Shown: positions 1 to 46,396 of the stretch, in pieces
Layout: each line of letters begins with the position of its first letter
How positions within the stretch are numbered: the first letter of the stretch is position 1
Assembly (NCBI RefSeq): GCF_026151205.1
Contig: NC_087078.1
Coordinates: forward strand, 8,386,675 to 8,450,674
DNA: 64,000 nucleotides
Origin: Bolinopsis microptera
Taxonomy: Eukaryota; Ctenophora; Tentaculata; Lobata; Bolinopsidae
Direction: 5' to 3'
Position numbers and translations under genes: made by a program
Notes under the pieces: model-generated
Database searches by the model: none
What the model was told of the DNA's origin: nothing
Seen by the model: only the letters and a program-made list of their open reading frames with translations

Positions 1-1790
1 ATGAATTGAACGAAATTAGAGATATAGCTGCATGCAACAGATGTTGGGAAAATCTTTTTAAAGAGTACAGTTTACTGCATTAAGGTATTTTTAAGAATCA
101 TTTTTGTTGGTAAGATCCTGTTTTATAATAATAATATGCTGATCTGAAGGCCATTAAAGCGTTTGAACCAGTCAAAAAAGTTTAAGTTGTATATCTTTTA
201 CAGTTTTTGGGAGAGTCGTGTTTAAGTTGATGCTGTGGTCAGTGGCGCAGTGACACGTATCCACCAAGTTTGCAGATGAGCGCATGGTTTGCTGAGTATT
301 TCTTTGCAAACCAAGAACCCTCTTACTCGCTGGCAATCCTAATGACTTCCATGCTAGTTCCAATACAACATGTGGTCAGCAATAGCAGCAAATCTGGGGA
401 AACTTTGAAATACACCAATTTGAAGCATTTAACCACCCCTTAAAAATCACAGATTATGAATTTTAGTAATCTGAATATTTACATAGGTCCAAAAATGTCA
501 TAGCTTCGTGATAGTGCAACGAAATAAATCCCAGAACATTTTGGTGCTGAGTTAGGTGGTTAAGTAGTCGAAATATGACTGATTTGTTAGTGGACATTTT
601 TTTGTACTTCTAACACTCAAACCCTTACTACACTGAAGATATGAGTGTTACAGTTAAAATTGATGGTCATTATTGAACAGAAACGGTTCATTGACACATA
701 GTTGAAGAAAGAAATTAAAAAGGTTAATAAATGTGGTCTGTGGAGTGGTTTATATGTGTTTATGTTACAGTGTATGCGTGCGCGCGCGCGCGCGTACTTA
801 ACCATCTGTAGGCCAACATATTTAGTTTATGCTTAATTTCTTTATATATTATGTCACCACTAGAGTGCCCAATACTTTTAGTGAAGGTGTAATGTAAAAC
901 GGTTAACCACCAACTGTGGTATATCAAAAAACCCCAAAAGTGTATGCGTGCGCGCGCGCGCGCGCGTACTTAACCACCTGTAATGGCACAGCATTGAGAT
1001 ATCACCATAATTCCAAAAGCAGAGTACACCATCCAGGTGCCCAAAACTTTTGGCTATGGTCCCAATACCATAAAACCTTAGATGTGGCCATAATGTGGTT
1101 AAAACATGTTGATTTTGGACCTTCGGTCAACAGAAGCCATCACAAATTAACCATTATTCAGCACAATCTGACCTTTTGGTGACTTATTTTGTTTTGATAT
1201 TTGATTATGAGAGATAGCTGAAGGATAATAAGTGATTTTAAAGATAATGCAACAAAATGTGTGGCCGTATAGCGGTTAAAACGACCAAAAACACTGATTT
1301 TGGTCAATTTTAGACCTTTATTAACCATGATGGACGCAACATAGGACTCAGCAATGTTTCTGGTCATATAAATGAGCAGGTAGTTATATCTAGATAATGT
1401 AGCATGGCCAGCTATAGCTTTACAAAGCTAATATGTGCTCTAAAAATGGTTAATTAGTGCAAATATAGGGTATTTTCGAGACATTTTAACCACCTTAGCT
1501 GCACATTGATCGGAATGCATGAACTTGGGGTCAATTATGCATTTGCAAACAAATATACACTCATTTGGATAGCAAACCATTATCTGAAGTTCATATTGTG
1601 GTTAATTTTCACTTTAATAGATGCCTTGTTCAACAGCCTAGCAAGTAATATAGCCCTTTTAACCACTTTTATGACAACATTTCTTGATTTTTTTTTAAAT
1701 TTGAAAATTCAATTAATCATTATATATATAAATCAAGCGTTACATTTCAGCCATGCAAAATTACAATGACATATTTTGATATACTAAATG
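1..1790. repeat. TTAACCAC-rich repeat region, left part
   Basis: No gene is seen. The octamer TTAACCAC or close variants recurs in both orientations every 50-150 bp (near 429, 557, 796, 903, 968, 1094, 1146, 1275, 1320, 1446, 1484, 1600, 1658). The same pattern resumes at 11.58-12.06 kb, beyond the LINE. I infer one element or repeat-rich locus split by the LINE insertion. Dense short motifs in both orientations resemble subterminal transposase-binding repeats of DNA transposons, but no terminal inverted repeat was found. Confidence 0.5.
768..981. repeat. Duplicated segment with (CG)n runs
   Basis: The string GTGTATGCGTGCG followed by a CG dinucleotide run and TACTTAACCA occurs at 768-812 and again at 938-981, about 170 bp apart. 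The runs are alternating purine-pyrimidine, about 16-20 bp long. No coding role is visible. Confidence 0.7.
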
Positions 1791-2108
1791 GTAAATGGTA
1801 CTGCAATATAAGTTGCTTAATGTTTGGCCGGATGACAACTAACGAGAAAAATAAACTTGATTATATAATAATTAATTCGGCTGAACCAACACATAGCAAG
1901 AGCCACATTAACGTTGGGGCCGTCTACCAAATTTGAATGACAAACATTAACAAGAAATCAAACATATCATAAATAATTATAAGGATTTTGTTCATTACAA
2001 TTCCGTCACAACTGATAAGAAAAAAGAAAAGGACAAGCAGATAGGAAATTGGACGGACAGAATTGTAACCAACAAAAACAAATTTCTGAGACTCATAAGA
2101 CTGATGAG

Positions 2109-2725
2109 CTAATCTGGCCAGACTGTATCGGCAGCCCAGAGGTACTTGATCAGTTTGGCCTTAAAAGTAGAAATCCGCTCTGACTGCCGGATACATACTG
2201 GTAGACTATTCCATTTCAGCATAGATCTATGAAAAAAGCTATTTCGGAAGGCGTCCGAGCAGGGCACAGTGGTACTCATGTAAGTTGAAGTATCCGACAT
2301 ATCAATTATTTGAGCATTGTGCCTAGTGTATCGGGTGCCCTCTGGACGGCATAGGACTATATATATGTAGGGAGCGAAACTGGAATTATGCTATTCACTA
2401 TTTTATAGAAGGTCATAAGATCGTTATAAATAAACTTCTGTTTAACAGGGAGAATATTTAGTTTCTTTTGCTCTGTAGCAAGTTTATCGTCATTATAACT
2501 GGAGTAAGGTTCACCATTGATCCATTTAATAGCCCTCTTTTGGATAGCAACAAACTGTTGAAGATGAGTTGCAGATTGAGGGGACCATATGACAGAACAA
2601 TGTTCAAATATAGACCTAATTAACGCTAAATAGAACGATCTTTTCTGCCTTTTATCAGTAGTGAAATGACATGTTCTCTTAAGTAGTCCAAGTCTAGAGG
2701 TAGCTTTGGAAACAAGCGCTTTACA
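2109..2725 (-). pseudogene. LINE ORF2, separated C-terminal part
   Basis: Continues ORF2 beyond the DNA transposon. From 2725 downward the frame reads the LINE C-terminal domain (LVSKATSRLGLLKR, then RSIFEHCSVIWSPQS, then ILPVKQKFIYNDLMTFYK). It stops near 2357; a second frame at 2300-2109 holds the terminal block (FFHRSMLKWNSLPVCIR). A frameshift or stop near 2345 therefore also damages the end of the protein. The 3' untranslated region runs on to about 1800. Confidence 0.8.
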
Positions 2726-2746
2726 AGGCATCATGTAGCCTCCAGG

Positions 2747-2910
2747 CTCGACAAACCCCGACAAACCCCGACGCACCCCGACGCACCCCGACGCACCCCG
2801 ACAAACCCCGACATATCCTGACAAACCCCGACAAACCCCGACAGACCCCGACATATTCCGACAGACCCCGACAAACCCCGACAGACCCCGACATATCCCG
2901 ACGTGTCGAG
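2747..2910. repeat. 10-bp minisatellite CCCCGACAAA, left subterminal
   Basis: About 14-15 tandem units of CCCCGAC followed by AAA, GCA, AGA or ATA, ending in CGACGTGTCGAG. It lies just inside the left TIR of the 3.7-kb transposon. Reverse-strand frames spell GFVGVCRGLS repeats; these are repeat artefacts, not a protein. Confidence 0.9.
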
Positions 2911-3004
2911 ATATGTCAGGGTATGTCGGATTATGTCAGTTTGCCCAATAATTTCGGTATCAAATTGACGAAAATAATACTCTGGAGCTCTCATAACGAG
3001 GTAA

Positions 3005-3343
3005 TTTAAGTGGGTATAAATATGTCGTCAGTCCTTCCTTCCTTCCGTTAGTTACCATGACAACTAGCGCGCAGTGCAGCGCGCGAGTATTGCTTGCGGA
3101 TATTTAATGTATATATAGCTAGCATGTCAATGAATGCGCGGCGCGAGTGTATTTTAATGTATGCTATGTTATGTACAGTATTAGGTAATAAGCCCAATTT
3201 GTACATGGCATGCGTAGTATAATGTACTCTGTGTATATTATTATTATGAAGTGAGCTGATTAGAGCTTATATTTATAGTTATAGTGAATGGAAATCTAGC
3301 GTCCGCCAAAACGAAACAACGGGCGCAATTCTTGTTAAAACTG
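3005..3343. repeat. Repeat module shared with PRRC2 intron 5
   Basis: A stretch of about 330 bp, from GTCGTC and CTTCC-rich sequence to GGGCGCAATTCTTGTTAAA, is closely matched at 25388-25690 in the same orientation. The shared right edge (CTAGCGTCCGCCAAAACG onwards) is nearly identical. It marks a second, partial copy of this transposon or of a module it carries. Confidence 0.8.
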
Positions 3344-3931
3344 TGCACTCAGTATAATAATAATCTAATACGCACTATGAAGCTATGAGCACGAGAGAAG
3401 AGTACAATACCGGACGGGACTGCAAGAGTGTGAGAAAGCAAGAGCGCAGCGCAAGAGACCAAAAGAGCAAGAGTGGGGGACAGTAAGAGCCACAGGATGA
3501 AAAGAAAGGAGTGTTGCGTCAGGCTTTGCTACGCCGCATCAGTTCACTTCCTTACCAATACTTGCCTAAATCCAATTCAATGAAACAAGCGATGCTGAAT
3601 AAAAACAATAAAATTTGTATCATGTATTTTTTAAAACATACATACATACGTATAAAAGTTGTTGAAAGTTTCAAAAGTATTACTAATACTAAGTAACTTT
3701 TAAAATGTACTTTACAAGGCATTATACAACTTAGAAGTACACATATCCCAAAGGCCAAAATATCATGCAATTTGTAAAATTTAAACAAATATTCTTAATT
3801 ATCATTGATAATTTTCTACATGTGTCGAACTGTAATATCTATTATATTGCATCACAATTATAATGATATCAAAATATGATAATTGGTAATGTACTGGCCA
3901 GTATATTAACATAGATCCGCTCATTACGTAC

Positions 3932-5392
3932 TCAATGTTTTTCATTCTCTCCTTGCGACTTATCATCGCCCTCCTTATCCATCTCTTTTTCAGTTTCACC
4001 TTCAATCTCCTTCTGAATAGCGTCTCCCTCAAGCTCCTTCTTCTTCCTACGCCTCTCCCTCTGCTTCTCCCTATCCTCCGCTGTCTCGTCCATGATCAGC
4101 ATTAGCATTTCGTCACTATAATGACCGCTTTCTCTCCAGTCCACAGGCCACCCAAGCTCAAGAGCCCTCTCATCGTCATCTATGAGCTGCTCAGCATCTT
4201 CTATCCTGGTCTTTACTGCTTCCTCCTCAGCCTCTTTCACCCTCCTATCCCATTCATCCTCTCTCGCCTTCTTCTCTTCTTCTGTCTCTTCCTTTCTCCC
4301 ACACTTAGGGGGGGGTCCAAGGGGAACTTTGGGGAGTTTTGGGGAACTTTTTTTTGGGGAACTTCAGGAAACCTGGGGGACTTTCCCAAAGTTCCCCAAA
4401 AAATTATCAATGAAACAAATAATTTTGGGGAATTTTGGGGAACTTTTTTTTGGGGAACTTCAGAAAGTTCCCCAAAATTTCCCAAAGTTCCCCAAAGTTC
4501 CCCAAAAAAATTATCATGCCAAAAAAATTATCATGCTGCAAGTATCAACAAGTAAGTTAAGATTATACCTTATAATAACATACATGTTAACATTAATGGG
4601 TATTAATGTATATTAGAGAAATTTTGAATAATTTTGAATAATTTTGAATAATTTTGGATAATTTTGAATAATTTTGGGGAATTTTGGGGAACTTTGGGGA
4701 GTTTTGGGGAACTTTTTTTTGGGGAACTTCAGAAATCTTGGGGGACTTTCCCAAAGTTCCCCAAAGTTCCCCTTGGACCCCCCCCCCCCACTTACTACAA
4801 TTCTTCTGGCACCTGGTGTACCAAGGGCACCCATGATCTGCAGCGAGGCTTGTAAGAAGCTTACTAAAACTAAGTGTTCCCCATTGAGTTCCTCATTACA
4901 CCTAGGATGCCATACAATATTCGTTTTCCATTTTCTCATTAAACTTTCTACACGGCGGGATTTTCTCTTTACCTTAGAAACACGTACAACTTTAACGAGG
5001 AGACTAGAGCCTGCTTTAAGCTGGCAGTAAAGCAGCTCAACTCCCTCTAGGGTGACATCAGATTCATTCCCACAATCATGTATTTCCGTGGGGACAGGCA
5101 GACCTTGTTCATCTTTTAAGTTGAACTCTACAGTGAACTCATCACTCTCCTTTAGCTTGTAGATTTTTCTGATTTTAGTGCAAAACTCTCCTAAATGAGC
5201 CTTGCTTATACGGAAGGGAGAGGCCAGGCTGTCTTCAGTCTTAATTCTGTAAACCTTCTGATCAGGCTGCTCATCTAGTGATTTGAAGGTATTGCCTGTG
5301 TGAGCGTCACTGAAGTCAATACTGTTAGACACGACAGACACAACATGCTCTGACCCTGATGCAGATTCCTCTGATTCTAGCGCTGCTATCAT
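3932..5392 (-). pseudogene. Hypothetical ORF inside the transposon, broken by the foldback element
   Basis: Not recognised. An upstream frame (5392 to about 4795) codes for a serine/acidic N-terminus followed by a folded-looking part (VYRIKTEDSL, FTVEFNLKDE, VKVVRVSKVKRKSRR). Past the 481-bp foldback element, 4300-3932 codes for a highly charged Glu/Lys segment (LIDDDERALELGWPVDWRES, then REKQRERRRKKKELEG). The insert plus its TSD (487 bp) changes the frame. Even without the insert, the two parts need a shift or splice to join. It could be cargo captured by the transposon or a remnant of its own gene. Confidence 0.4.
4308..4788. mobile_element. 481-bp foldback element with GGGGAACTTT repeats and 6-bp TSD
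   Basis: The ends are inverted: a G run then TCCAAGGGGAACTTTGGGG on the left, and the complement ending in a C run on the right. The flanking duplication is CACTTA (4302-4307 and 4789-4794). The interior is made of GGGGAACTTT-like units of about 10 bp in both orientations, plus a short AATTTTGAAT tandem near 4620-4680. It sits within the hypothetical ORF of the 3.7-kb transposon, so it inserted later. Confidence 0.85.
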
Positions 5393-6240
5393 GTCTGAAT
5401 TATTTTGTTAGTAGAAAAATAATTTATATAATTAGAGGAGTTTAAAAGTTAACAACGCACTGGACATAAAACGATCGAATCGCCCGAAGTGAACATTCAC
5501 TAAGCACCGTTGATCGTCGTAATCAGAGAGCACGGTAAAGGAGTAAAGGGCGGGAAGGAGTGGAGATTGGACAGTTAAGACAAGTTTGGAACTTTTGGGA
5601 TCTATCGATCAAAAAATTTCAAAACAAAACTTACATAAAAATTATGAAACCTTACAAAACTCTCCAAATCAATCACAATGCCTTCTAAAGTACAATGAAT
5701 CAATGTCCAAAAAAGATCAATTCGAGAGAAATCTTAGTTCCCAAAACAAGAACTTGATGTTTTTAGAAATAAAATAACAATATTTCAGCATCAAAGTATC
5801 AAACAGTTCCCAGGTAATTTGACACTACTACATAATTCAATGTACTAAATAATTCAATATTTTAAAAACAACTTTAAAAACTTTATCAACTACTGCCTGA
5901 CGTGACTCGTGTGCCACATTGTACCAACTGTCGCTCTTCGTCCACGCTTTTTCGTCTACTTGGCGTAGGGCGCGGTAAGATTTTATGTAATCACGCGCGT
6001 ACTTATCGCGCGCTGTAGTGATACGTGCACATGGTCTTGTGGCTTCAAATGACCCCTGTAATCCATGTGCGGGGCAGGAGGGTCAAGCACTCTTTTTCTG
6101 AAATGAGCCTCCTGATCCATGTGTGGGGCAGGAGGGTCAAGCACTGTTTTTTTCAGGTTGACCCTCCTGCGCCATTATACTGCCATTGATCAATCTTCTT
6201 TAGGCAACTTCCAATCACTCTTCATCCATTATTAACGAAT
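5393..6240. other. Transposon interior without gene
   Basis: No coding region supported. At 6061-6102 and 6117-6158 a 42-bp segment (ATCCATGTG, GGGGCAGGAGGGTCAAGC) is duplicated with a 56-bp period. Confidence 0.5.
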
Positions 6241-6395
6241 CCCGATAAACCCTGACAAACCATGACAAACCCCGACAAACCCCGACAAACCCCGACAAAC
6301 CCCGACAAACCCCGACGCACCCCGACAAACCCCGACACACCCCGACAAACCCCGACAAACCCCGACAAAACCCCGACAAAACCCCGACGTGTCGA
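6241..6395. repeat. 10-bp minisatellite CCCCGACAAA, right subterminal
   Basis: Same unit and same orientation as the array at 2747-2910, again ending in CGACGTGTCGAG and followed by the TIR. It supplies the false C-terminal repeats of the interrupted LINE ORF2. Confidence 0.9.
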
Positions 6396-6437
6396 GGTGT
6401 GTCGTATCATGTCGGGCCCACCGGCTACATGATGCCT

Positions 6438-9338
6438 TTTACATTGTGCACCCCAATTAAACCTGGAGTTTATTGCGACTCCTAAATCTGACTGAGAGGG
6501 CACAAAGTCAATATCACTTCCAGAAAGTTTATAAAAGAAGGTATTGAATGGCAAGTTATCCAGCACGTTTCTTTGCAGGGACACAGAGAGGGCTTTGCAC
6601 TTTTGTGGGTGGAACTTCATTCGATTTCTCACTGACCAATCATATAATCTGTTGATGTCATTTTGGATTATGTGATGGTCAGGGTAACCAAGGATCTCCC
6701 TCCAAATTTTAGTGTCATCTGCATAAAGGGCGATATTGGTGCCTTCAGAGACACAGGAGAACATGTCATTTATAAATATTACAAACAATAAAGGGCCAAG
6801 TATAGAACCTTGAGGGACACCAGACCGAACTGGTAGAGAAGAAGACGTTTGGCCTCCTATCACTACTTGTTGTTGTCGCCCCTCAAGATAGGACTTAATA
6901 AATTTAAGCATTAGTCCATCGACATTAAAAATATTCTTTAATTTACTTAAAATGAGGTCATGCGAAACGCTATCAAAAGCTTTCGCAAAATCAAAATATA
7001 TTATATCAGTCCTGGACCTGTTATTCAATGCAAGTGCAAGATTGTCCGTGAAAGGTATCATTTGGGTTGTGCATGAACGTTCATTAACAAAACCGTGTTG
7101 TCGGTCATCCAACAGATCAGAACATGCAGCGTATAATGCAGTCTTTATGCACCTTTCAAAGACTTTCATTACAAGAGATGTTAACGAGATAGGCCTGTAG
7201 TTCTCAACCGAAGACTTATCGCCCTTTTTGTGCACTGGTACTACAAGTGCCAGCTTCCAATCAGGGGGTATGCATCCGCTCGAGAAAGACAGGTTAAATA
7301 AAACACTAAGTGGGTATGCAAGGCTTTGGGCACAGTTTTTGAGGACTCTCCCATGAATCCCATCAGGGCCAGGGGCCTTGTTAGGATTTAACTTTTTAAG
7401 AATCAACAGAACATCTTCTCTACTAAACACAAGACTTGAAAAACAATCATCACGAAAATCTATGTCAATGCCATAATCGCTCTCTTGAGAAAACTGCTCA
7501 TAAAAATATTCGTTAAAAAGGGCAGCTTGATCAGATGGATTGTTTCGAAAGCGATTATGATATTTGACAGTTTCAGGGATCCTGGTTGACTTTGATTTAG
7601 ATTTAACGTAGGTCCAGAATTTCTTGGAGATAAGAGCATCATCGGAGTCATCCTCAACACTGAGTCTCATTCTTTCGTCCATCAAATTTTTAAATTTTGT
7701 GCGAAATGCACGAAACTTTTGTTTATGAGACTCAGAGTTGCTCCCCTTATGCCTTATTCTCCATTTCTCCTTATTTCGTAGGAGACGATCACATTCGGAG
7801 TCATACCATGGGGGCTGGAACTGAGACTTAATGGTCTTTTTAGGGATCCATCGGTCACAGGCTGCACCGAGAACTCCTCTGAATCGACTCCAGGCAAGAT
7901 AAGGATCATTACACTCAAATACACTATCCCAATCGATGCTAAATAACTCAGAATTCAGGCCCCTAAAATTACCTTTACTATAATTAAAGATCTTTCTTTT
8001 AGGCTGCTTAATATACTTGGTCTTAATATCAATGTCAAATGTGATACAAAAGTGGTCGGACATACACATTTCGTTTTGATCTAAAACTTTAACATTCTTA
8101 ATAAGGTTTTGAATGTTAGTGAACACAAGATCTAAGGTGTTGCCTGACTTGTGAGTAGGGGAGCTAATAAGTTGTGTATGTCCGAGGTCATCAGTGAGAA
8201 AATTTACAAAGCTAGAATGTAGCTGGCAAGATGACTGACCATCTGGCCAGGAAATCGAAGCCAAATTAAAGTCACCTACCAGAATGTGCCTTTGCAATTT
8301 TCTGGCAGATGCTAAAGTAACAAAATGTTTCTTGAAAGATTCAAAATTATCTAAGCCAAGCGTTCCTACTCTATAAAATGTTGATATACAAAAGTTTCTT
8401 CCACACTGAGTCTTAATTATGATGGATAATAATTCAGCTTGAACACTAACTTTAGAGAACTTTAGACTCGAGATATCAATGTCTGTTCTATGGGCAATCA
8501 GAACACCACCACCGTTTTTTCTGAATTTCTTGGGCTGGGTTGCATCCACTGGATGCGATCTTAAGGATCGGTCAAGCCTAAATACTTTGTATTTGTCAGG
8601 GAGCACCTCATTACTGAGAATGGAATTTTTCAGCCATGTCTCGTTTAGAATAATGATGTGAGGCTTATGTTTGTAGATATAACCATGGAATTCATGTATC
8701 TTGGTCATATTTAGTGGTGGTGTTCCTGATGCTAAATCGCGTGTATTTAGGAAACCATGGACATTATTGTAAACAACGGATAAATTTGGTCCAGGGTTCA
8801 GTAAGGAACAATTACAAATTACTATCAGGGAAATATTAAGGAGAGATAGAAAAACCAGACCACACCTAGACATGACCCCAAGCCAGCTGCTGGTTATACC
8901 GAAAAGTAACTTAACAGTCTGTTTCGGTGACATGGTAGGTGACAGTTCGGTTTTTGTGGTAGATAGCAATTTTATAGAAATTGCAGCTAAGGCTGTCCCA
9001 ATGCCCCCCTCCCCCCTATACACAAGTTTAAAGTGTCTGAGAAAAATGGTACAAAATATTACCATAAAGTAAAGATTTATGGATGACCTCAAACATGGTA
9101 CAGAGTGTATTTTAGGTTGTAGGGGAGCACCAGGGAGTGTATAATTAGCATCGATAGTCAAAGAAAATATATACAAAATAACATAAAAATAAAATATACC
9201 CAATAGAGCACATAACATATGACGAGACAGAAGACAGGACAACAAATTTTCCCCGTTACCTCTATTACTTTTACTGATGATAACATACCTAGAAAACATA
9301 CCAGTTGCAACACGGTGTTGTTGAGCCGATATTCCCAT
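6438..9338 (-). pseudogene. LINE ORF2, N-terminal part: APE endonuclease and most of the reverse transcriptase
   Basis: Open from 9338 for 967 codons up to the transposon insertion. The true start may be a later Met near residue 156, because the first 150 residues are hydrophobic and unlike known domains. An NPGP motif lies at 181-184. The APE-like endonuclease follows: NETWL (about 232), LVGDFNL (about 354), SDHFCITFD (about 437). The RT has KAPGPDG, YRPISLTS, FDFAKAFDSV, GVPQGSILGP and the catalytic YADD near 872. These motifs place it in the CR1/L2/Rex1 group. The frame then runs into the transposon's terminal minisatellite and ends at 6222, so the RT thumb and C-terminus are lost from this ORF; they lie at 2109-2725. 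Confidence 0.88.
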
Positions 9339-9532
9339 GGAACTTTAAGGTATATTATTAACAGAATTGTGTCTCGCCGTTGTGTTTTGTTAGGTATTGT
9401 GCTATAATATGAAGTAACATACATTATGCTATCACTTCGTTTGAATACATATAAATAACATCCAAATGATCAGATCCAATAGGATACTGATGCAGACAAT
9501 GAAAAATTTAAATATTGAATTGAATTACCACA

Positions 9533-11044
9533 TCAGTATCCCAATGGATTAAACCACTTTGAGTGTATGATTCTGAGATAGAACTTTGCCAACACTGGCA
9601 TCCCAGCCTTGGGGCTGGGATGAATATCATAAAAGCCCCTTTTGTCACATTTAGGAAATAATCTCTCGTTTCTGTTTCCATAGCGGTCTAAGAAAGCCCA
9701 AAAAACATCAAGGTAAAACAGTTTATGCCTAGAGCAGCGATCAAAGATCAAATTATTCACAGCACAAACATTACCAGGGATTTTATCTTGTCCGTTGGGG
9801 TGGACTGGTGGAATAGCTTGTACAAAAACACGTGCATTTGGATAAAGTTTTTTTGCTGTCTTCATAAGGTCACTCACAGGGGTCTTGAGATGATTGACAC
9901 CCTGGGTACAGTACCGGATGTTGTTGGCACCGAAGCTTAAGAACAGTTTCTTTACCTGCACAAGAGGGTTCTTTGTATGAAAGGCCTCAATAGATTTCTG
10001 TATAGCTGAGATCTTAAGCCCACCCTTAGCTATGTTGGTGACAGTTTCTTTACCTCTACTGAGGCGATCAGCGTCCAATCGAGCAGCAAAGGAGTCACCA
10101 GCAATGAGGATGATAGACTTCTGGTGTTTTTGAGAGTCTGTGATGGGAGCTTTTGGGGGTACCTTATTAGGACTGTCGGATGTAGGAGAGGGAAGAATAG
10201 GAGATGAAGGGGAAGAGGAAGGTGTGGTTAACTTTCTGAAGGAGAGACTATACCTCCAACAAATTTCATTGTCAGAAGGTGCAACTCCTGGGGCAATCCT
10301 GTGCCTCATGACTTGCTGTGCACCAGGCTTCATGATGTTCAGTGTGCCATTGGTGGCAGGAAGGGTGAAGTCTGCGTTAATCAACTCTTGGGCTGGCCTT
10401 GACCTAGAGGCCCTAGTTGTGCGTTGTTCTACTTGGGTTGTATCGAGCACAAACTCAAGTGACCGCGGAGCCCCTATTGAGTAAGTGCAAATGGAGCTGG
10501 ACTGTGATATTATTAGGTCTTCATCGTCTTTATGGAGGCTTAACTTAGCTTGCTGAGTGTCGTACCTAGTAACAAGGCAAGCATCCATGTTGTTGGTGGT
10601 GGAGGGGAGGTCATTAATAAGTCCCATCAACTTAAAGATGCTAGGGAAGTTGTTGATGGGATGTGGCTTGTTGACTATGTTACCAAAGCAGTAGTCTTCT
10701 GATGAAGGGCTTAGCCATAGGGTGTGGACTTTATTAGATTTGCCTTCAAGATTCATTGAATCTAATTCTTCTGTGATTTTCTGGAATAGATTTTCATCCA
10801 TTCCAGGGAGAACTGGAACGTGCTCTACGAGCGTATGTGGGCTATACGAGACATTTTGAACAGTAGTTTCCTTCTTCGTTTTCTTTTCCTTCTTCTTTTC
10901 ATCTATACGTTCTATTTTAGAAGCAAGCTTTTTCTCTTTCAGACTGTCCAGGATACTCTGAGTAAGGAGGGTATGCATGTGTTGCTTTACTTCAAGAGAT
11001 AAGTTTTGCAGTAAGGCGAGGAAGTTGGCGGGCAGTGTTGGCAT
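9533..11044 (-). CDS. LINE ORF1 protein: coiled coil + AlkB-like 2OG-Fe(II) dioxygenase + SGNH hydrolase
   Basis: Intact 503-aa ORF upstream of the EN-RT ORF. Residues about 10-60 form a charged, probably coiled-coil/basic segment. Residues about 150-272 match the AlkB fold: NNMDACLVTRYD, then H171-x-D173 (SLHKDDED), SICTYSIGAPRS, H248 (VMRHRIAPG) and R264...R270 in RYSLSFR, the spacing of the 2-oxoglutarate arginine and substrate-side arginine in E. coli AlkB. A Pro/Ser linker follows (272-305). Residues 310-495 look like an SGNH/GDSL esterase: IAGDSFAARL with the nucleophile Ser in GDS (318), GANN (372-375), and DIHPSPKAG with the likely catalytic His (475). Esterase domains in CR1-like ORF1 proteins are established. 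The AlkB part suggests demethylation or repair of the element's RNA or cDNA, which is my inference. All expected metal ligands are present, so activity is plausible. Confidence 0.85.
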   Translation of the reverse strand: MPTLPANFLALLQNLSLEVKQHMHTLLTQSILDSLKEKKLASKIERIDEKKKEKKTKKETTVQNVSYSPHTLVEHVPVLPGMDENLFQKITEELDSMNLEGKSNKVHTLWLSPSSEDYCFGNIVNKPHPINNFPSIFKLMGLINDLPSTTNNMDACLVTRYDTQQAKLSLHKDDEDLIISQSSSICTYSIGAPRSLEFVLDTTQVEQRTTRASRSRPAQELINADFTLPATNGTLNIMKPGAQQVMRHRIAPGVAPSDNEICWRYSLSFRKLTTPSSSPSSPILPSPTSDSPNKVPPKAPITDSQKHQKSIILIAGDSFAARLDADRLSRGKETVTNIAKGGLKISAIQKSIEAFHTKNPLVQVKKLFLSFGANNIRYCTQGVNHLKTPVSDLMKTAKKLYPNARVFVQAIPPVHPNGQDKIPGNVCAVNNLIFDRCSRHKLFYLDVFWAFLDRYGNRNERLFPKCDKRGFYDIHPSPKAGMPVLAKFYLRIIHSKWFNPLGY

Positions 11045-11489
11045 CTTGTTGTGAAGTGTGGGAGGATCGGGAGGAGACTGGGTGATCCGGATAAGAGATC
11101 AACAGCAGGATGTTTCAGTGGCACCGTTGTAAACCCTAGCAATCTGGATCTGAAACAGTTAATAGGCCAGAGATTTATAGTTCAGAGTGAAAAAAATTTG
11201 AATTATAATGAACAGAGGTGTTGTAAAGAACTGTATAGCAGAAAAAAGAATGCAATACTTATCTAAAGGAGAAGTAGCTAAAAGGAGTTAATAAATTTCA
11301 AACATCACTAGATCTCTAACAATAAAACTAACCTCGTACCAGACCGCAGGAGCCCTGGTAGTACAAGACTACCAGGGCAATAGGAAGAAACGGTTACCAC
11401 CTCCACAACCTGCCATCTAACTCAGATCCATCACACCCAGGACACCGGCAGACTTTACTCCAACGGATTACTCATCGGTAGCCATACCT

Positions 11490-12440
11490 AAAATTATTTG
11501 TTATATAGTAGTGTTGAAAGTATTAAAACTAACTTTTATCAAGACCCTTCAAATGTCCTTTGTTGACCATAAAATGTTGACTAAAACCATTAATAATGTT
11601 TTGATTGGTGGTTAACAACAAATTTTGACATTTTAACCATCTTTTTAGCACTTTTTACGAATATTAACCACCTCAAATCAACCATACTATTAAATTGCAC
11701 ATTTGTGATACAAAATTATCATCCATGCACAAATGAACAACCACCACTATACATCTATAATCAGAGCAATATTTATAGCTCACCGTTCATCTTCAATTTA
11801 ACCACCATTAGGACCACAAAATGCCCCCCATGAGGGTTGAAAACTTTTGTGATAGTTGCACCATGATATGATCTCAATATAATGACTACTCAGTTCATAA
11901 TATCATATCTCAAAATGGTGGTTAACCCTAAAACTGGTATTTTAACCACCATAGTGGCCACATAGATGACCCATTAACCACAATTATTCAACATAACCGT
12001 ACTGCAGTGTTTTGTGCACCAGAAAAACATCACTCCAACATTGAGATTAACCACAATGAGCTGCAACATAATGTTGAAGTCAACATACTCAAATTGTGTG
12101 AAAAAAGTCAATGTCCACCAAGTTTCCCCAGATTTGCTGCTATTGCTGTGGTGCTAGATTTGATATATAATCTGATTGTGAATCATGGTGACCAGTATTT
12201 GAGCGCACTTTCTTTGATGTAAGGGTGTCTCATCAATATGCAGCATTAAATGTTACTGTCAGTCTTCCTACACCACGAGGAGAAAATATACCATTATCAA
12301 GATCTGGTCTTGGAAACTAAGAGAGGATCATTTGAACTCCTTTTCTTATCGACTACAAGAGACTCAGGTCCCAGCTGCACCACGCTCACAAAGCAAGTGG
12401 CAGCCAAAATATCGAACATAAGAGACGAGCAATAAGCTCA
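11490..12440. repeat. TTAACCAC-rich repeat region, right part
   Basis: TTAACCAC variants in both orientations recur near 11610, 11636, 11667, 11800, 11918, 11940, 11972 and 12047, as at 1-1790. No gene is supported; short ORFs here have no recognisable content. Confidence 0.5.
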
Positions 12441-12529: not shown

Positions 12530-13524
12530 GAGATAAGATAAGATTTAAATGTATGCCTCTCTGGGCATCTCATATACAAATATAATTACTTCAAAAATGT
12601 ACAATTTACGTTTAATAAACTATTAAAATATAAAAACTAAAAGAAGTTAACTGAAAACTTGGCTGATAAGTGCCTTAGTAAGGCCTTTTAAAGTGACCTT
12701 CTTCCTCTTAGCTATTATTGGATTATCTTTCATATAATTTACATAATTACTCCTGTGAGCTACAGTAACATCAATTCTATCAAATATATCATATGAAAGT
12801 TCCCAGTGATGACCAAGCTTATTAGCTTGATATCCATGAAGCCGGAAGGCATCTAATCCCCTCTTGAAACCAGTAACCGACTCACTAGCTTTCACAAGTG
12901 GTGGTAGACTGTTCCAATAGCGCAAGACCCTTTGGGCAAAGAAATCAGTCTCATTTGTGGTGAATCTATGAGTCTTTGATATAGCAGCAACAGTCCTACC
13001 AGAACGACTAAATAAATCGGAACCATAACCCACAAAGCCTTCCTGGATCTTGAACATCTCAATGAGATCTCCACAAACCCTGCGTTCAGGCAGGGTTGTG
13101 AGGTTCAGCTTATCCAGTCTCTCTCTGTAAGTCATGAGTCCCAATCCATCAATCATACGGGTGAACGATCTCTGAACACCTTCCAATTCAAGAATCAGTG
13201 ACCAGTTTCCATGCCTAGCCATCGGAGTCCATGCCTGTGAACGATACTCTATATGAGGCTTTACTAAAGACTTATACAAGTCCAGCATAACGCTTGTTTC
13301 CCTCGATATAATATTTCTTGTAAGCCAGGCAATGGTACCATTAGCTTTAGCAATGCACTTCCGCACATGATCCTCAAAGTTGAAACTGGTGCTAAAGACC
13401 ACTCCAAGGTCCTTCTCGCTTTCAACACATCTCAAAGGCACACCACCAAACAAGTACTGATTCTTAGGATTACAAGAACCAATTTGCACGACCATACACT
13501 TATCTACATTAAAACTGAAGAAGA
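12530..13524 (-). pseudogene. 5'-truncated CR1-like LINE (RT C-terminal domain)
   Basis: The open frame 13495-12647, extended upstream to about 13524, codes for the end of a CR1-like ORF2: KCMVVQIG, EKDLGVVFSTSF, LDLYKSLVKPHIEYRSQAW, GDLIEMFKIQ and YWNSLPPLVKAS. Endonuclease and RT palm are absent. Loss of the 5' end is the usual outcome of incomplete target-primed reverse transcription. The 3' end lies near 12530, in an AAGATAAGAT-like stretch. It is a different family from the LINE at 1.8-11.5 kb. Confidence 0.8.
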
Positions 13525-16639: not shown

Positions 16640-17349
16640 AGAACAGAGTGATTTACATTCCTTGGAGTAATTATTGATGACAAATTAAGTTGGAAACCAC
16701 ACATACAATCTCTTAACAAAAAACTAAGCAGTGCTTGTGGACGTATCTACCGTATTAAGAAATGCTTACCAGAATCACTATAAACAAATTTACCATTCTC
16801 TCTTTGAATCACATCTCGGTTTTGCTATTTCTGTGTGGGGAGGTATTCCTAATATCCAGTTAAAACCACTATTTATTACTCAGAAGAAATGTATAAGAAT
16901 TCTATTCGGAGACCATAAAAGGTATGTAGACAAATTCAAAACATGTGCTAGAGTTAGACCGTTCGGCTCCCAACGTTTGGGTTGCGATTTTTATGTAAAG
17001 GAGTCTACCAAACCTCTATTTGCAAAACATAAATTACTAGCTGTAGAGAACCTATATAGACTACGCTGCCTAATGGAATTTTTTAAGATAATTAAGACAA
17101 GAGTACCAATTTCAATGTTCTCTTTGTTCACCATATCTCATAGGAAAGACAATATGTTAATCACACCTTCTCCAACTAAACAATTCATCTATAAATCAGC
17201 GTGACTGTGGAATGAGTTTTGTAAAATTGGCTCATTTAATTTTAATTCCTCTTGTTCTTCTGTTAAGAATAAATTACAAAAGTCATTGATGAATGCCCAA
17301 AACAGGTATGGTGCTGAATGGAATGACAAAAATTTCACTGAATTCTAAG
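16640..17349 (+). pseudogene. 5'-truncated LINE fragment (RT C-terminal domain)
   Basis: Frame 1 begins TFLGVIIDDKLSWKPHIQS. A frameshift near 16785 moves coding to the frame that reads FESHLGFAISVWGG, LLAVENLYRLRCLMEFFK and TPSPTKQFIYKSA. A stop at about 17204 precedes LWNEFCKIGSFNF, which continues to the terminal stop near 17347. This is the end of a LINE ORF2 with two lesions. A relative of the same family split the GPCR gene at 45.2-45.9 kb. Confidence 0.8.
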
Positions 17350-36484: not shown

Positions 36485-36837
36485 CATATTGGGTTAAAAG
36501 CAACGTCTTTTGCCCCATTTTCATTACTATAGGATTAGGGGGGGGGGGGGGGGTGTCACGTCCGTCTATTTCCGCTTGTCTCATAGAATCCAAAAAGGAC
36601 AGGACATAGGCGGACATAGGCGGACATAGACGGACATAGACGGACATAGGCGGACATAGGCGGACATAGGCGGACATTAATGGACACTTAAATTGCTAAA
36701 TAAAATGTTCAATTTTTGCTTTTATAGGGGGATCATGTTTTTTGTCCGTTCGGTACCCTATATTTTCAAAACGGACAAAAAATAGAACGGACAAAAACGG
36801 ACAAAAACGGACAAAATGGAAATAACATTTAGATGCT

Positions 36838-38045
36838 TCCTCCTCCTACTCTTCCTCCTCCTCTCCCTGGGTCTTCCTGATCTTCCTCAGTCCTCTTGCT
36901 CCTCCCCTCCTCAGTCCTCCTCCTACTCCTCCTCCTCGTCCTCAGTCCTCCTCATCAGTCCTCAACAGTCCTTCTCCTCCCCAGTCCTCCTCCTCCTCCT
37001 GAGTACTCCTCCAGGGTCCTCCTCTTCATCCTCCTCCTCTTCCTCCTCAGTCCTCCTCAGTCCTCCTCCTCATCCTTCTCCTCAGTCCTCCATCCTCCTC
37101 AGTCCTCCCCCAGTCCCCCTCCTCCTCCTCCTATTCAGTCCTCCTCCTCCTCCTCCTTCTCAGTCCTCCTCCTCCTCCTCCTCTTCCCTCTCAGTCATCC
37201 TCCTCAGCCATCCTCCTCAGTCCTCCTCAGTCCTCCTCCTCAGTCCTCCTCCTCCTGGGTCCTCCTCCTCCTCTTCATCCTCCTCCTCTTCCTCCTCGGT
37301 CCTCAGTCCTCCTCCTCCTGGGTCCTCCTCCTCATCCTTCTCATCAGTCCTCCTCCTCCCCAGTCCTCTCCCAGTCCCCCTCCTTCTCCTCCTCCTATTC
37401 AGTCCTCCTCCTCAGTTCTCCTCAGTCCTCCTTCTCATTTCTCCTAAGTCCTCCTCCTGAGTCCTCCTCTTGAGTCCTCCTCCTCTTCCTTCTGAGTCCT
37501 CCTCCTCCTCCCTCTCAGTCATCCTCCTCAGTCATCCTCCTCAGCCATCCTCCCCAGCCATTCTCCTCAGCCATCCTCCTCAGTACTCCTCAGTCCTCCT
37601 CCTTCTCAGTCATCGTCAGTCCTCCTCCTCAGTCCTCCTCAGTCCTTCTCCTCCTCCTGGGTCCTCCTCCTCCTCCTCCTCCTGGGTCCTCCTGGGTCTT
37701 CCTGATCCTCCCCAGTCCTCTTCCTCCTCCCCTCCTCAGTCCTCCTCCTACTCCTCCTCCTCGTCCTCATTCCTCCTCATCAGTCCTCAACAGTTCTCCT
37801 CCTCCCCAGTCCTCCTCCTCCTCCTGGGGCCTTTTCCTGGGTCCTCCTCCTGGGTCCTCCTCCTCCTGGGTCCTCCTCCTCCTGGGTCCTCCTTCTCCTC
37901 CTCAGTCCTTCTCCTCCTCCTCCTCAGTCCTCTTCCTCCTCCTCCTCCCTCTCAGTCATCCTCCTCAGCCATCCTCCTCAGCCATCCTCCTCAGCCATCC
38001 TTCTCTGCCATCCTCCTCAGTACTCTTCAGTACTCTTCAGTCCTC
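36838..38045. repeat. TCC/TCAG-rich microsatellite block
   Basis: About 1.2 kb of CTCCTC, CAGTCCTCC and CCTGGGTCC variants on the plus strand, nearly purine-free over long stretches. Open frames through it are Ser/Pro/Leu artefacts of composition. Confidence 0.95.
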
Positions 38046-38049
38046 AAAA

Positions 38050-38225
38050 TTTTTGTCCACCAATGTCTGCTAATGTCCATCAATGTCCATCCAAGTCCGC
38101 CAATGTCCGTCCGGGTCCGCCAATGTCCGTCCGAGTCCGCCAATGTCCGTCCGAGTCCGCCAATGTCCGTCCGAGTCCGCCAATGTCCGTCCGAGTCCGC
38201 CAATGTCCGTCCGTGTCCGCCTATG
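38050..38225. repeat. Minisatellite CAATGTCCGTCCGAGTCCGC
   Basis: A 20-bp unit repeated about 8 times with single-base variants. It is built from two 10-bp half-units (TCCGCCAATG, TCCGTCCGAG) related to the GGACATAGGC units at the transposon ends. Confidence 0.9.
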
Positions 38226-39410
38226 TCCCAAAAAACACGTCCGTTGTCTCATAGAATCCAAAAAGGACAGGACATAGGCGGACATAGACGGACATGACAC
38301 CCCCCCACTATATCAACTCCAATATCCACCAAGTTTTTAAAGTCCAATTAGAAGGTCCTTACGAATTTTCAGAATTGAAAATGATCTTATTCCAGAAACC
38401 GAAGATATGACAAAATACTACTACTACTATGTCGGAGCTAAGTCCGATCTACGCCAGAAAACCCCCTCCATATATCCCTGTCCCGCATCAGGGTTCGCAG
38501 TTCCTCTTTAGAGTTTGTCCCAACTTCCTTCAGTAACATAAACAAGTAGCTTTGTCTTGGTCGGCCTTGCTGTGCTCTACCGTGCGTAGATTCCCATAAG
38601 ACTAAATCACTGGCAAGTAGCTCAGGATGTCGGATGCAGTGTCCCGCCATTTTTAATCTCCTGCTTCGTAACTTGTTTGACAGCCTTGGGAGGCTACCAT
38701 ACAAAGTTATATTGCTGACCTTGTCCTTCCATGAGATACCATTACCCAGCACCATACGCAACATCTTTGTGTATGTCCCGTCCAAACTTTTCTCTTGAGC
38801 CTTTGTCAGTGTCCAGGTTTCTGATCCGTAGAGCAGTACTGATTCACAAGCCGCTATGAACAATCTAATCTTTAGGCTCTTTGACAGTTTGGATTTCCAG
38901 ATATCCTTCAGTCTATGTAGGGCACCCCACGCTTTTCCCTTTCTAACCCTTACCTCCCTATCTGTGCTCTCAATCCAGGAGCCTAAGTAGATGAAATCAT
39001 TTACATTTTCTATACTATGGCTTCCCCGGATCGACTTTGTAGGTCGCTAGATCGATCCTCCATATTCAGTGTCATGACCTTGGTCTTGCCTTCGTTTATG
39101 TGTAGTCCCACGCTTGCTGCCGCCGATTCTACTCTGAGCAGGAACTCGTTAGCCTTGTCCATGTCCTCAGATATAAGTGCTATATCATCTGCAAAGTCCA
39201 CATCGGTGATGATCTTGGGCCCCACTCTTCTGCTTTTTCTACGTTCGAGGGTGAGTCCAAGTCGCTCCGCATCATCGCCTATGGCTTGCCTCATACAGTA
39301 GTCGATGACTATTGCAAAGAGGTAAGGTGCTAAGGTATCACCCTGTAACACACCTGCAAGTATCTCGAACAATTCAGTTTCTCCGTCTGGAGTTAGGACT
39401 TTGGCCATTG

Positions 39411-39501
39411 TTGATACATGTTTCGTATCCAATTGTTGATACATGTTTCGTATCGGCGGCGCGCGCTTCGCGCGCGAAAAGTGGCATGCAACGTATGTCA
39501 A
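39411..39501. mobile_element. 91-bp mini-element with 8-bp TSD, in frame in RT
   Basis: Flanked by GGCCATTG at 39403-39410 and 39502-39509. Termini TTGATACATG and CGTATGTCAA are imperfect inverted repeats. The interior has a direct repeat (ATTGTTGATACATGTTTCGT) and a CG-rich palindrome (GCGCGCTTCGCGCGC). Insert plus TSD adds 99 bp, preserving the RT frame; removal restores MYEKTMAKVLTPDG. 8-bp TSDs suit hAT-type mobilisation. Confidence 0.85.
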
Positions 39502-41171
39502 GGCCATTGTCTTCTCGTACATGAGCCGTATAAGCTGCACGATTTTGACTGGAATGCCGTAAGCTTCTAGAATCTTTAGCATTTTCCCACGATGTACACT
39601 GTCGAAAGCCTTCTTAAAGTCTATAAATGTCAGAACAGCTGGCAGTTTCCGACTCTTGACACCCTCTATAAGACGTCTCAGTACCAATATCTGTTGAGTT
39701 GTTGACCTTCCTGGTCTGAATCCATTCTGGTTTCTACGCAGAATTGTCTCGATTTCTGGCTTCAACCGGTTTAGAACCATCTTGTTTAGAGACTTGGCAA
39801 CTAGGGATGACAAGCTTATTCCCCGATAGTTCATTGGTTCGCTAAGGTCGCCCTTCTTTGGAATTGGTATGATGTTGGCAGTTGACCATTGGTCTGGTTT
39901 CTCACCTTTCAATAGAGCATTGTTACAGAAGTCTAAGACAATTAGATCAAGGTCGCATCGTTTTAAGACTTCTGGGGCTATGTTGTCGTCACCCCATGCT
40001 TTCCCTTCCTTTATGCTGGACTTTGCTTTCCTGTACTCATCCAACGTAAACGGTTCTGTTCCGATATTCAGAGGTGGGTGGACTGGATCAATATCCTCTT
40101 CCGCGTTCTCTACCGTCGGTGGTGAGCCGAGAAGAGTAGCAAAATAGTCCTTCCATTTCTGAACCCTTTCCGTTGGTGAGTTTCCCTTGATTTTGCCAGT
40201 ATATGATGGAGCTTTACCTGTGATCTTGTTGATCATGGTCCAGCTTTTAGCATGTCTGCCCTGCCAACTTGCTTCCTCCAGTTCCCGGACCTGCCCCTCC
40301 AGCAGGTGCTCTTTGGCTGCTTGATAAGCATCGCCTAGCTTCTGTTTGCCCTCTTGAACAGCTATTCGGTTGTCTTCTGTAGCATCTGAGTGGTATTTTA
40401 TGCTACATTCCCTCAGCTTCAGCCTGGCAATCTCAACACTTGGAGTCGCTGAGATTTTACATCTTTTCTTTTTCTCCTTTTCAGGTAGTAAAAGTCGAGA
40501 AGTTGTCCTATTCGCATCAATAAAGCATTGGTACCTTTCTGTTGCCGTCTGATCATCCTTTTCAAGTATGGAAAAGCGGTTTTTAACTTCCACTGTGTAC
40601 CTCTCTTGTAGAGCGATATCAGTTTTAAGTTTAGACCAGTCCAGAACCGGAGCCCTCTTCTCCGTCTTGCTTATCCGTAGACTAAGCTTTACCCTTGCTA
40701 CGACTACTCTGTGATCCGAGCCAATACTGTGGAAACTACCATATGCTTCGGAGTTCTTGACGGAGTTCCGCCATTTCTTCCGGCAAATGATGAAGTCGAT
40801 TTGAGATTTACTTTGACTCATATCTGAGAGATATGTCCAGAGTTTACATCTTCGCTTCTGAAATCTGGTGTTTGTGATTTCTAGCTGTCGCTCCAACAGC
40901 ATATCCTCTAGCAGTCTACCATTTCGGTTTGCTGGACCCTTGTGGAAGGATGTCCAGTTTCCTGATGATGAGACATGCGCATTGAGGTCTCCTACAACGA
41001 AGTAGTAAGTTGTGGGCTGGTATCTGGTCGATGGCACCACCAAGGCTGTCGTAGTAGTTTTCTGCTTCGTCGACAGTCGCCCCCTCTGTCGGGCTATAAG
41101 TCACAATAACAGTTGTGACCGGGTTCCCTGCAAAGTTGGCTACCATCGTCCTCCTGTCATGTGAGTATACA

Positions 41172-44496: not shown

Positions 44497-46396
44497 TTAT
44501 ATCCTCAAGATCTGGGAAGCAAAATTCAGGGCATCATCACCTTGCACTTCTTGAAGATCATGCCTTGGATCTGGTCTTTGTCTTGGATTTGATCTCTGTC
44601 GTTGAAGGGCCAGTGGTCTTTGATGGGGTTGAGGTGTTAGTCTCTGATGCAGATGGGGTTGAGGTCTTTGATGTAGTTGCCGGTGTTCTTGCCTGGTTAG
44701 CCTCATCAAGGAAATGAATTCAGATATCTTCATTTTTAGGAAACGTCTAAAACTTTGCAACGTTAGCGAGTACACGAAGAAATTACCCATCAAATTTAGG
44801 TTAACGAGATGAATTATTACTCGAATTAAGGTGTTGCTGATTTGAACTCTACAGAGCAGTATCAATGTCAACACACTATATGGCAAGTAAGATAGCAAGA
44901 ATACACCAACAGTGAGCAGTATTGTGATGACACCCTCCCATCTCAGTGTTTCTCCATGTCGGGAGGCAGCTTTACTAGCCACGATCAAGAGAAGGACTGA
45001 TGTAACTATGAGTGTCATGTAGGAGAGGATACCTATTGCAGTCAAACTGATATGAAAGTACCATGTATACCATAATGGGAAACTGGATGAGTTTGTAAAA
45101 TAGTTACAACTATAGTCTATGTAACTGAAGTGGATTGTGTATCTTGTATAAAGCAACTTCCCTACTAATAATCAGAATAAAACAAATATTCAGAATAAAA
45201 CAAATATTATATTCAAATCTCTTTATTCAACAATATTAAATCATTATAGAACCTAATTTGTGGCTTGATCGTTATGTTAGGGCTATTCTGCTAGCTGATG
45301 CTGACAGGCACTGCATGGGGCAGAGACTTAGGACCATCACGCTGGAGGCTTACAATGACCCTTTTTGAACCCCATGGCAGTGCTAGTTTTATTATGGTAC
45401 AAATTGTAAATCGAAGTTATGAAAACGATCAAGTCACTCCTGTTTTACACTATCAACAGCTACTTAAAGCAACCTAGATTGTACAACTCACTTTGAAGAT
45501 TAAACTGTTAAGTGATGAGTGATTGGGCTCATTAAACATTTTAGTAGCGGAGACATGCGGATCAGCTTCTTGAGGTTCTAATAGTTCATTCAGACAAGAA
45601 GTTTTATTTTTTCAAATTTAGTCGTTCAAGCTGCCTGAGTTCAGAAAGTTTGCCAAAGGGGCCCAGGTATTCTTGTCAACTTTACCCTGAGACGAGAGAA
45701 TGACTTTTTTTACCTTTGATTTGAATACACCATGAGTGATTTCAAGGTCGTTCAGTGCCAACATCTGACGGAATGAATTCCAAAGGCAACTAGATTTGTA
45801 AACGAAACTGTTTGAGGGCATGGTTGTTATAAGAAGAGTTTCTTTGCCGGGTCTTTTAGACAAACAGAAAAGTTCAAATAGTGCAATTGGTGTTCGATAT
45901 TTAAAGACTTTAAAAAGTTCAATAATGGAGTGCCCCAACCAAGTGATAAAAGCCACAACGCAGAACTGATTTTATGTCCTAACAGTGTGGACCAGGTTCT
46001 AGTTTTCAGAGGATACTTCACTGTTATCCGCTTCAGAGTGGTTATAGCACATGTCAGGAACAATGTCACTGGGGTGCATGTCCAGTTGACAATTACCTCC
46101 ACATGGCAGAGGAGCTCTCCTACAACCCACCTCTCTGATATTAAAGCTAGAGTGACAGGGATTACTCTGAATACAGATTGTATCAAGTCACAAACAGCCA
46201 TGTGCTGCATCACCGTTACTATCACTTTATGGAGTTTGATAGCTTTATATTTTATAGTTGCTATCAAAATTATACTGTCTCCTATAAGCGACAACAGAAG
46301 AACCATAAAGTTCCACAATATGAGAAGTGACTGCTCCGCATCATCTTTGATAGCATTTTGCGTTTTGTTAGCTGTTTGCATGTTCAACAGAATCAA
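44497..46396 (-). pseudogene. Rhodopsin-like (class A) GPCR split by a LINE fragment
   Basis: Minus strand. The first part (46396 to about 45940) encodes TM1 (FMVLLLSLIGDSIILIATI), TM2 with MAVCDLI, the TM3 start with the expected Cys (GELLCHVEV) and TM4 (ISSALWLLSLGWGT). The second part (about 45170-44497) resumes with ECL2 including its Cys (IDYSCNYF), TM5, TM6 (GVITILLTVGVFLLSYLPY) and TM7, with GNFFVY at the NPxxY position, then a Gln/His/Pro/Arg-rich tail. TTLKR replaces the DRY motif. About 750 bp of LINE 3' sequence separates TM4 from ECL2. I see no splice pair flanking it, so I read this as an interrupted gene; an intron carrying a LINE is the alternative. The ligand cannot be inferred. 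Confidence 0.72.
45180..45940 (-). mobile_element. 5'-truncated LINE fragment inside the GPCR
   Basis: The frame from about 45940 to 45618 reads IIELFKVFKYRTPIALFELF, NSFVYKSSCLWNSF and GKVDKNTWAPLANFL, colinear with the LINE fragment at 16.6-17.3 kb. The 3' untranslated part follows to about 45180, ending in two copies of an 18-bp unit (CAGAATAAAACAAATATT on the plus strand). Confidence 0.8.

Follow-up and report, generated by a model that had tools for sequence, protein, structure and literature searches.

Does an intact open reading frame in a ctenophore genome encode a LINE ORF1 protein that joins an AlkB-type dioxygenase to an SGNH hydrolase and, if so, what would a retrotransposon gain from carrying it? 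These questions are raised by positions 9533-11044 of a 64,000-nucleotide stretch of the Bolinopsis microptera genome (hereafter the window), for which an original prediction made from the letters alone had proposed such a protein and had suggested that it reverses alkylation or methylation of the element's own nucleic acid.

The LINE copy in the window

The frame of 503 amino acids is real. It runs from 11044 to 9533 on the minus strand over 503 codons without a stop, and many stops interrupt the plus strand across the same interval. A search with this ORF gave 91 matches in the genome, and 18 further full-length copies are also stop-free. The encoded protein consists of an N-terminal region (residues 1-69; 10838..11044), an AlkB-type 2-oxoglutarate (2OG)/Fe(II) dioxygenase domain (residues ~70-276; 10217..10837) and an SGNH hydrolase domain (residues 309-503; 9536..10120), all on the minus strand. 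The N-terminal region evolves fast and is helical in a low-confidence model, the first structure model placing helices at residues 6-14 and 17-50 with pLDDT values below 50 for residues 34-69.

The limits of the LINE copy were set by BLAST against the copies L001-L003. Homology begins at 11530 with L001 and with L003, whose piece, as a reference for the 5' end, itself begins just 13 bases before; it breaks off at 6438, is taken up again at 2725 and, with L003, extends to 1690. The whole copy therefore occupies 1690..11530 on the minus strand, from a 5' end at 11530 to a 3' end near 1690. A gap of 194 bases separates ORF1 from the first part of ORF2 (6222..9338, minus strand), which encodes an endonuclease and a reverse transcriptase (RT) with a YADD motif. 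The Pfam matches of ORF2 are Exo_endo_phos_2 (6.7e-11) and RVT_1 (5.1e-30), and its best PDB relatives are the R2 and LINE-1 ORF2 proteins. The LINE-derived part of this frame ends at the breakpoint at 6438, and the remainder lies inside an insertion; the C-terminal part of ORF2 and the 3' end of the element follow at 1690..2725 on the minus strand, with 94% identity to L002 and L003. ORF2 is thus disrupted from 6438 until 2725 because about 3.7 kb was inserted there (2726..6437). The insertion has 15-bp perfect inverted termini (AGGCATCATGTAGCC), contains tandem 10-mers at 6241-6388 and is flanked on both sides by TGTAAA, which is likely a 6-bp target duplication; by its sequence, it looks like a DNA transposon. 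Since the insertion splits ORF2, the window copy is incomplete, and its ORF1 is still intact. In copy L002, stop-free frames exist for both ORF1 (523 aa) and ORF2 (1185 aa). An endonuclease/RT ORF2 downstream of ORF1 and many dispersed copies characterize the element as a LINE, and the many near-identical intact copies indicate that it was active recently. Other LINE ORF2 remnants or parts were recognized by eye in the window at 12647-13495 (minus), 16731-17204 (plus), 39010-41043 (minus) and 60752-63369 (plus); a Pfam scan of the first of these gave no match, although it is endonuclease/RT-like by eye.

Identity and conservation of the two enzyme domains

When the window ORF was scanned against Pfam as a single sequence, AlkB was absent even at E 10 and the SGNH match alone was obtained, so the AlkB claim was tested at the level of the family. 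A family profile built from eight ORF1s of the Bolinopsis microptera genome and searched against the PDB matched human ALKBH3 over profile positions 98-245 (1.6e-9) and ALKBH2 over positions 66-244 (3.1e-6), and AlkB types other than these two were absent among the 28 PDB profile matches up to E 10. The Pfam AlkB profile, PF13532, matches three of the eight family members (best 4.8e-17), the window ORF alone being unmatched, and the AlkB domain of another LINE, L018, matches ALKBH2 at 3.7e-11. The domain is homologous to AlkB enzymes.

A first structure model (8 rows, pLDDT 63.7) left the HxD loop weak, and for this reason we used a second AlphaFold model of residues 70-503, built on 18 rows, with a mean pLDDT of 81.5. 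Foldseek ranked ALKBH2 (4.6e-12) and ALKBH3 first and E. coli AlkB next. When residues 1-205 of the model were compared using VIA-align, ALKBH3 (8jnk_E) gave a Z of 20.6 with 181 aligned residues and an rmsd of 2.8, and ALKBH2 (3bty_A) gave a Z of 20.5, followed by FTO (17.9) and E. coli AlkB (17.6). The predicted model has an AlkB-type double-stranded beta-helix fold, with ALKBH3 and ALKBH2 as its best matches, and the structural and profile comparisons both bear out the proposed AlkB domain. Orthology to ALKBH5 or FTO was also considered and is not favoured by the profile matches to ALKBH3 and ALKBH2, by the first ALKBH5 row standing at Foldseek rank 44 or by the FTO Z value.

The iron ligands of the HxD...H motif are H171 (10532-10534), D173 (10526-10528) and H248 (10301-10303), and the 2OG-binding R-x5-R motif provides R264 (10253-10255) and R270 (10235-10237), all on the minus strand and all as originally placed. 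The Glu of the HxDxE stretch is kept as E175, the ALKBH3 equivalent reading HSDDE. To call the set complete was slightly too strong, as the N-x-Y motif reads T159-x-Y161 in the window protein. In AlkB, the place of T159 is taken by an Asn (Asn120) that contributes to 2OG binding. The elements have N, T, S or I at this place and all three host-like genes (described below) have N; L011 is also devoid of the Tyr. The N-x-Y cofactor motif is accessory rather than defining for AlkB.

The C-terminal half of the protein matches Pfam Lipase_GDSL_2 at 6.4e-9, above the cut-off. Its GDS motif lies at residues 316-318, and residues 239-427 of the model aligned with a sialic acid esterase (7pzg, Z 20.1) and PAF-AH (3dt6, Z 18.5) in VIA-align. 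The S, GxN, N and H of SGNH enzymes are invariant in 14 aligned sequences, and S318 of block I (10091-10093), N374 of block III (9923-9925) and H475 of block V (9620-9622), on the minus strand, are invariant in 18 of 18 rows. The predicted SGNH domain thus stands with respect to GDS, the block V His and the fold; the catalytic motif departs from expectation at the Asp place of D-x-x-H, where Tyr472 is found in 19 of 19 window-family copies. This Asp is present in L013 and L018. It is absent in some active SGNH members. We filed the C-terminal half of ORF1 as an SGNH-fold domain, a putative hydrolase.

Selection was analysed in the 19 copies (the window copy, L001-L003 and L034-L048) that make up the whole of the full-length, stop-free set of at least 94% identity among the 91 matches. 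The residues H171, D173, E175, H248, R264, R270, S318, N374 and H475 were kept in all 19. The pooled Nei-Gojobori dN/dS values, which come from copies chosen as intact and from pairs that are not independent, were lowest for SGNH (0.147), followed by AlkB (0.249), the linker (0.275) and the N-terminus (0.296). Based on dN/dS across these 19 intact copies, both the AlkB and the SGNH domain are under purifying selection, and in the proposed comparison of copies the ligands were not lost.

The ligands are also retained over greater distances. None of the five AlkB ligands varies among the 11 open ORF1s that were picked, by whole-protein similarity, from the window family and its sisters; since this set spans longer times, it is a stronger test than the 19 near-identical copies. 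The ligand pattern is seen in 11 of the 12 loci that were initially fetched by similarity, the exception, L006, being truncated inside the domain. The sister families that keep the ligands show 33-49% identity. When the parts of the element were compared between the window family and L004, L011 and L009, identities were 50%, 44% and 39% for AlkB, 44%, 62% and 43% for the endonuclease, 62%, 74% and 58% for the RT and 27% each for the N-terminus. In these three sister families, the conservation of AlkB is therefore near that of the endonuclease (39-50% versus 43-62%).

The widest comparison was an alignment of 24 AlkB domains, 21 from elements and three from host-like genes, with identities down to 16-25%. 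Ten columns are invariant in it, namely Y118, H171, D173, E175, S189, G191, R194, H248, R264 and R270. With these 10 columns out of 148 gap-free ones, the hypergeometric probability that all five ligands fall among the invariant columns is 4.6e-7; in the eight rows chosen by whole-protein similarity, where 33 of 179 columns are invariant, it is 1.6e-4. Both values are flattered, because the pattern with which the element domains were cut already held H, D, E and the two Arg, though not H248. Of 27 element loci, 26 carry this pattern, the exception again being the truncated L006. As 16 of the 24 rows were found via PF13532 and pattern cutting, the 24-domain count favours kept ligands.

Based on the profile, the fold, the conservation among copies and the downstream endonuclease/RT, the element is supported as a LINE whose ORF1 joins AlkB to SGNH, as the original prediction had it.

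AlkB domains in other LINEs and in Helitrons

When we searched the Bolinopsis microptera genome with PF13532, at least 151 places were matched. We fetched 18 of these loci, which comprised 12 LINE ORF1s (L013-L021 and L024-L026, with L019, L021 and L025 judged by eye from neighbouring frames), three giant frames and three host-like genes. In all 11 LINE ORF1s that were scanned (L025 was unscanned), AlkB was matched at 1e-18 or better, above the Pfam cut-off. A GDSL/SGNH match at E<=0.05 was obtained in eight of the 11 (L013-L017, L020, L021 and L024), in each case below the Pfam curated cut-off. The Pfam scan gave no GDSL match at E<=0.05 in L018, L019 and L026; SGNH blocks were seen by eye in these three and in L025, and the invariant Ser, Asn and His of SGNH are kept in the alignment by L018, L025 and L026. 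An additional LINE family, found via the SGNH search (L049, a frame of 478 aa), has AlkB-type motifs ahead of SGNH when read by eye. Weak PHD-like finger matches below the Pfam cut-off occur in L016, L017 and L018; the Pfam scan of the window protein gave no PHD match. The LINE ORF1s L050 and L052, the latter with its upstream part L055, contain coiled-coil-like stretches and SGNH, and no AlkB was seen by eye in the ORF1s of L050 and of L052 with L055. With at least two LINE families having SGNH and no AlkB seen, some SGNH LINEs can do without AlkB.

The three giant frames are L022 (G000 C10:16874600, part of a 3388 aa frame), with AlkB and DUF6570 in the piece read, L023 (G000 C12:2468300, part of a 2459 aa frame), with AlkB, DUF6570, Helitron_like_N and GDSL, and L030 (G000 C9:11089000, part of a 2225 aa frame), with AlkB, DUF6570 and Helitron_like_N. 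AlkB precedes DUF6570 in all three. The GDSL match of L023 (9.3e-7, just below the cut-off) precedes AlkB, so that the order in this Helitron, SGNH-like before AlkB, is swapped relative to the LINE ORF1. By these matches, the predicted AlkB-SGNH pairing is also found in other LINE families and in at least one Helitron, L023. The remaining loci, L027-L029, resemble host genes, with L028 closest to ALKBH3 (2.2e-40).

We then compared the history of the AlkB domains with that of the RTs. The AlkB tree contained 23 rows (20 element domains and three host-like genes), was unrooted and included no outside AlkBs; the RT tree contained 14 rows, all from families of the Bolinopsis microptera genome and with no reference LINE RTs, and covered nine of the 12 LINE ORF1 loci above (L013-L018, L020, L024 and L026). 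In the AlkB tree, the three host-like genes stand on one side (82/74) and the 20 element domains opposite. This tree, which is unrootable as it has no outside AlkBs, does not set the origin or the number of captures, whether from host ALKBH2/3 genes or otherwise, nor the direction between LINE and Helitron AlkBs. Both trees recover the window family, the L013-L015 pair and the L014-L024 pair, which indicates that AlkB travelled with the RT at least within these groups. L016, L017, L018 and L026 form one group by RT (98/97) and are ungrouped by AlkB. The L014-L024 pair is joined with L013, L015 and L021 by AlkB (88/87), but with L016-L018 and L026 by RT (84/90). Strict co-inheritance is therefore not fully borne out; AlkB and RT may in some cases have had separate histories, and the L014-L024 conflict is a hint that parts of ORF1 may have been exchanged between LINE lineages. 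The RT of the L020 type is very distant from the remaining RTs.

Related systems and proposed function

The closest architecture is the type IV (esterase) ORF1 of CR1/L2/RTEX LINEs, such as zebrafish ZfL2-1 ORF1p (PMC3905857 and PMC4120745, in their excerpted text). As in that type, the window ORF1 lies upstream of an endonuclease/RT ORF2 and has an SGNH hydrolase and a helical N-terminus; unlike it, the type IV ORF1s pair the esterase with a coiled coil or with a zinc finger/leucine zipper. The term AlkB is absent from the main texts of both papers, and no described ORF1 with AlkB was found in open-licence PMC papers, in agreement with the original prediction. Likewise, no LINE or Helitron AlkB was found in that literature, as screened by titles and abstract openings, and a term look-up in PMC8141815, PMC11294593 and PMC7873242 gave none. 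The nearest precedent is the AlkB of an orchid Ty3/Gypsy element (paALKBH5-like), which is a retrotransposon-encoded AlkB with the ligands; according to the excerpted text of PMC9289625, it is of the ALKBH5 type, is encoded by an additional ORF of an LTR element and demethylates m6A in RNA in vitro. In contrast, the domain described here belongs to a LINE ORF1, is nearest to ALKBH2/3, is fused to SGNH and occurs in several families. For one accessory enzyme in unrelated element classes there is also a precedent, as GDSL/SGNH ORFs are common to bdelloid LTR elements and other retroelements; the excerpted text of PMC5408684 deals with SGNH and a DEDDy exonuclease, and its main text lacks the terms AlkB and Helitron.

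Among enzymes outside transposons, human ALKBH3 and ALKBH2 share with the window domain the fold, the HxD...H...R-x5-R motif, the Glu of HxDxE and the profile match, and differ from it in being only about 20% identical, in having Asn at the cofactor place occupied by Thr here and in not being part of a transposon protein fused to SGNH. Foldseek also matched viral AlkBs, from grapevine leafroll-associated virus 3, little cherry virus 2, a vitivirus, Riboviria sp. and pithoviruses, whose carriers are a different type of element. The AlkBs of plant viruses repair RNA. No relative was found in viral contigs using A2, L018, L015 or the Helitron AlkB as queries. Genomic surveys of AlkB-like enzymes may have mentioned transposon-borne members. 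The comparison suggests that the new aspect would be the addition of AlkB to an esterase-type LINE ORF1, seen in several families, with Helitrons carrying AlkB as well.

It is known that ALKBH2 and ALKBH3 act on m1A and m3C, and that these groups block base pairing and hence stop reverse transcriptase. PDB titles among the Foldseek matches name N1-meA, N3-meC and 3mC. Since the domain is nearest to these enzymes and E175 is kept, we suggest that the ORF1 protein of this recently active LINE, with its helical N-terminus, its AlkB part of the ALKBH2/3 kind and its SGNH fold, is best explained as a tethered repairer of m1A and m3C in the element's own strands, a reading that we regard as probable. 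The protein would package the element RNA, as ORF1 proteins generally do, and the SGNH part could tether the particle to membranes or lipids, in the manner proposed for ZfL2-1. The AlkB part, using Fe(II), 2OG and O2, would strip methyl or alkyl groups such as m1A and m3C from the Watson-Crick face of the element's own single-stranded RNA or DNA. As such groups stop the RT, tethered repair would let more copies reach full length; alternatively, it might undo marks laid by the host. The points against full activity are T159 in place of the cofactor Asn, L011 without the Tyr and Tyr472 at the SGNH Asp place.

Helitrons move without an RNA step, through single-stranded DNA. Because they carry AlkB too, the substrate is more likely to be single-stranded nucleic acid generally, single-stranded DNA included, than a mark confined to mRNA. 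A broader version of the repair reading, in which LINEs of several deeply diverged lineages and Helitrons in this genome carry the AlkB-SGNH cassette as a standard accessory module that repairs, or frees from marks, the single-stranded replication intermediates of both, appears to us to fall a little short of even chances.

The original prediction had also named m6A-type marks as targets. In this case, the domain would clear m6A from the element mRNA and let it escape host surveillance, as has been proposed for the ALKBH5-type orchid enzyme, which has m6A activity in vitro (PMC9289625, excerpted text). The proximity of our domain to ALKBH2/3 by both profile and fold makes this target less favoured, as do the AlkB domains in Helitron frames. 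Moreover, ALKBH5 suppresses L1 in human cells, according to the excerpted text of PMC7873242, so that erasure of m6A need not help a LINE. We consider an m6A eraser unlikely. An anti-silencing role on DNA, in which 6mA is removed or another base is oxidised in element DNA at a new insertion or in a Helitron intermediate, seems less likely still. It draws on the fact that Helitrons, which are DNA elements, share AlkB, on ALKBH2 having been solved on double-stranded DNA (PDB entry titles) and on the PHD-finger matches of L016-L018, which could mean chromatin targeting but are weak and have no counterpart in the window protein. We also considered a non-catalytic role or one that does not concern nucleic acid, with the AlkB fold used for RNA binding or as a protein hydroxylase. 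T159 and the L011 motif would fit such a role, and SGNH proteins with lost activity are known (PMC3905857, excerpted text). Since a fold used only for binding need not keep its ligands, their presence in the 11 family ORF1s and in all 24 pattern-selected domains counts against it, and we regard this role as improbable. Finally, an accidental HxD, H and R-x5-R in an unrelated ORF, or a local host-gene fusion, would agree with the single-sequence Pfam scan that misses AlkB and is rejected with near certainty on account of the profile, the fold, the conservation in multiple copies and the recurrence.

Returning to repair of the element's own strands, the domain content suggests that mobile elements may bring their own nucleic-acid repair tool. 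If the ALKBH2/3-like activity is true, the element would open to direct test both whether transposition is limited by base methylation on RNA or single-stranded DNA and whether such methylation serves hosts as a weapon. If the cassette reading is true, it would imply that Watson-Crick-face methylation is laid by the host, or left unrepaired, to a degree that selects for the cassette. The presence of the domain in both LINEs and Helitrons points to a selective pressure that the elements of this host have in common. The protein would also add an enzyme-rich ORF1 type to the classification of LINEs and is a possible source of an RNA demethylase.

Outside the LINE copy, the window contains a long C-rich stretch of low complexity at 36816-38297, with Ser/Pro/Leu-rich frames on the plus strand and a GC skew of -0.43 at 36-38 kb. 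Two frames at 44497-46396 (minus strand) resemble exons of a rhodopsin-type GPCR, by eye. When two glutamate-receptor frames from the genome were compared with the PDB, kainate receptors were the best matches listed, at 237 and 172 bits, with no near-identical chain among the matches listed, and a stricter search with the second frame gave none. In the genome, the glutamate-receptor ligand-binding family gave 32 matches, 10 of them in open frames of at least 900 aa (L031-L033 were fetched), and the glutamate-receptor genes with such long open frames are apparently intron-poor.
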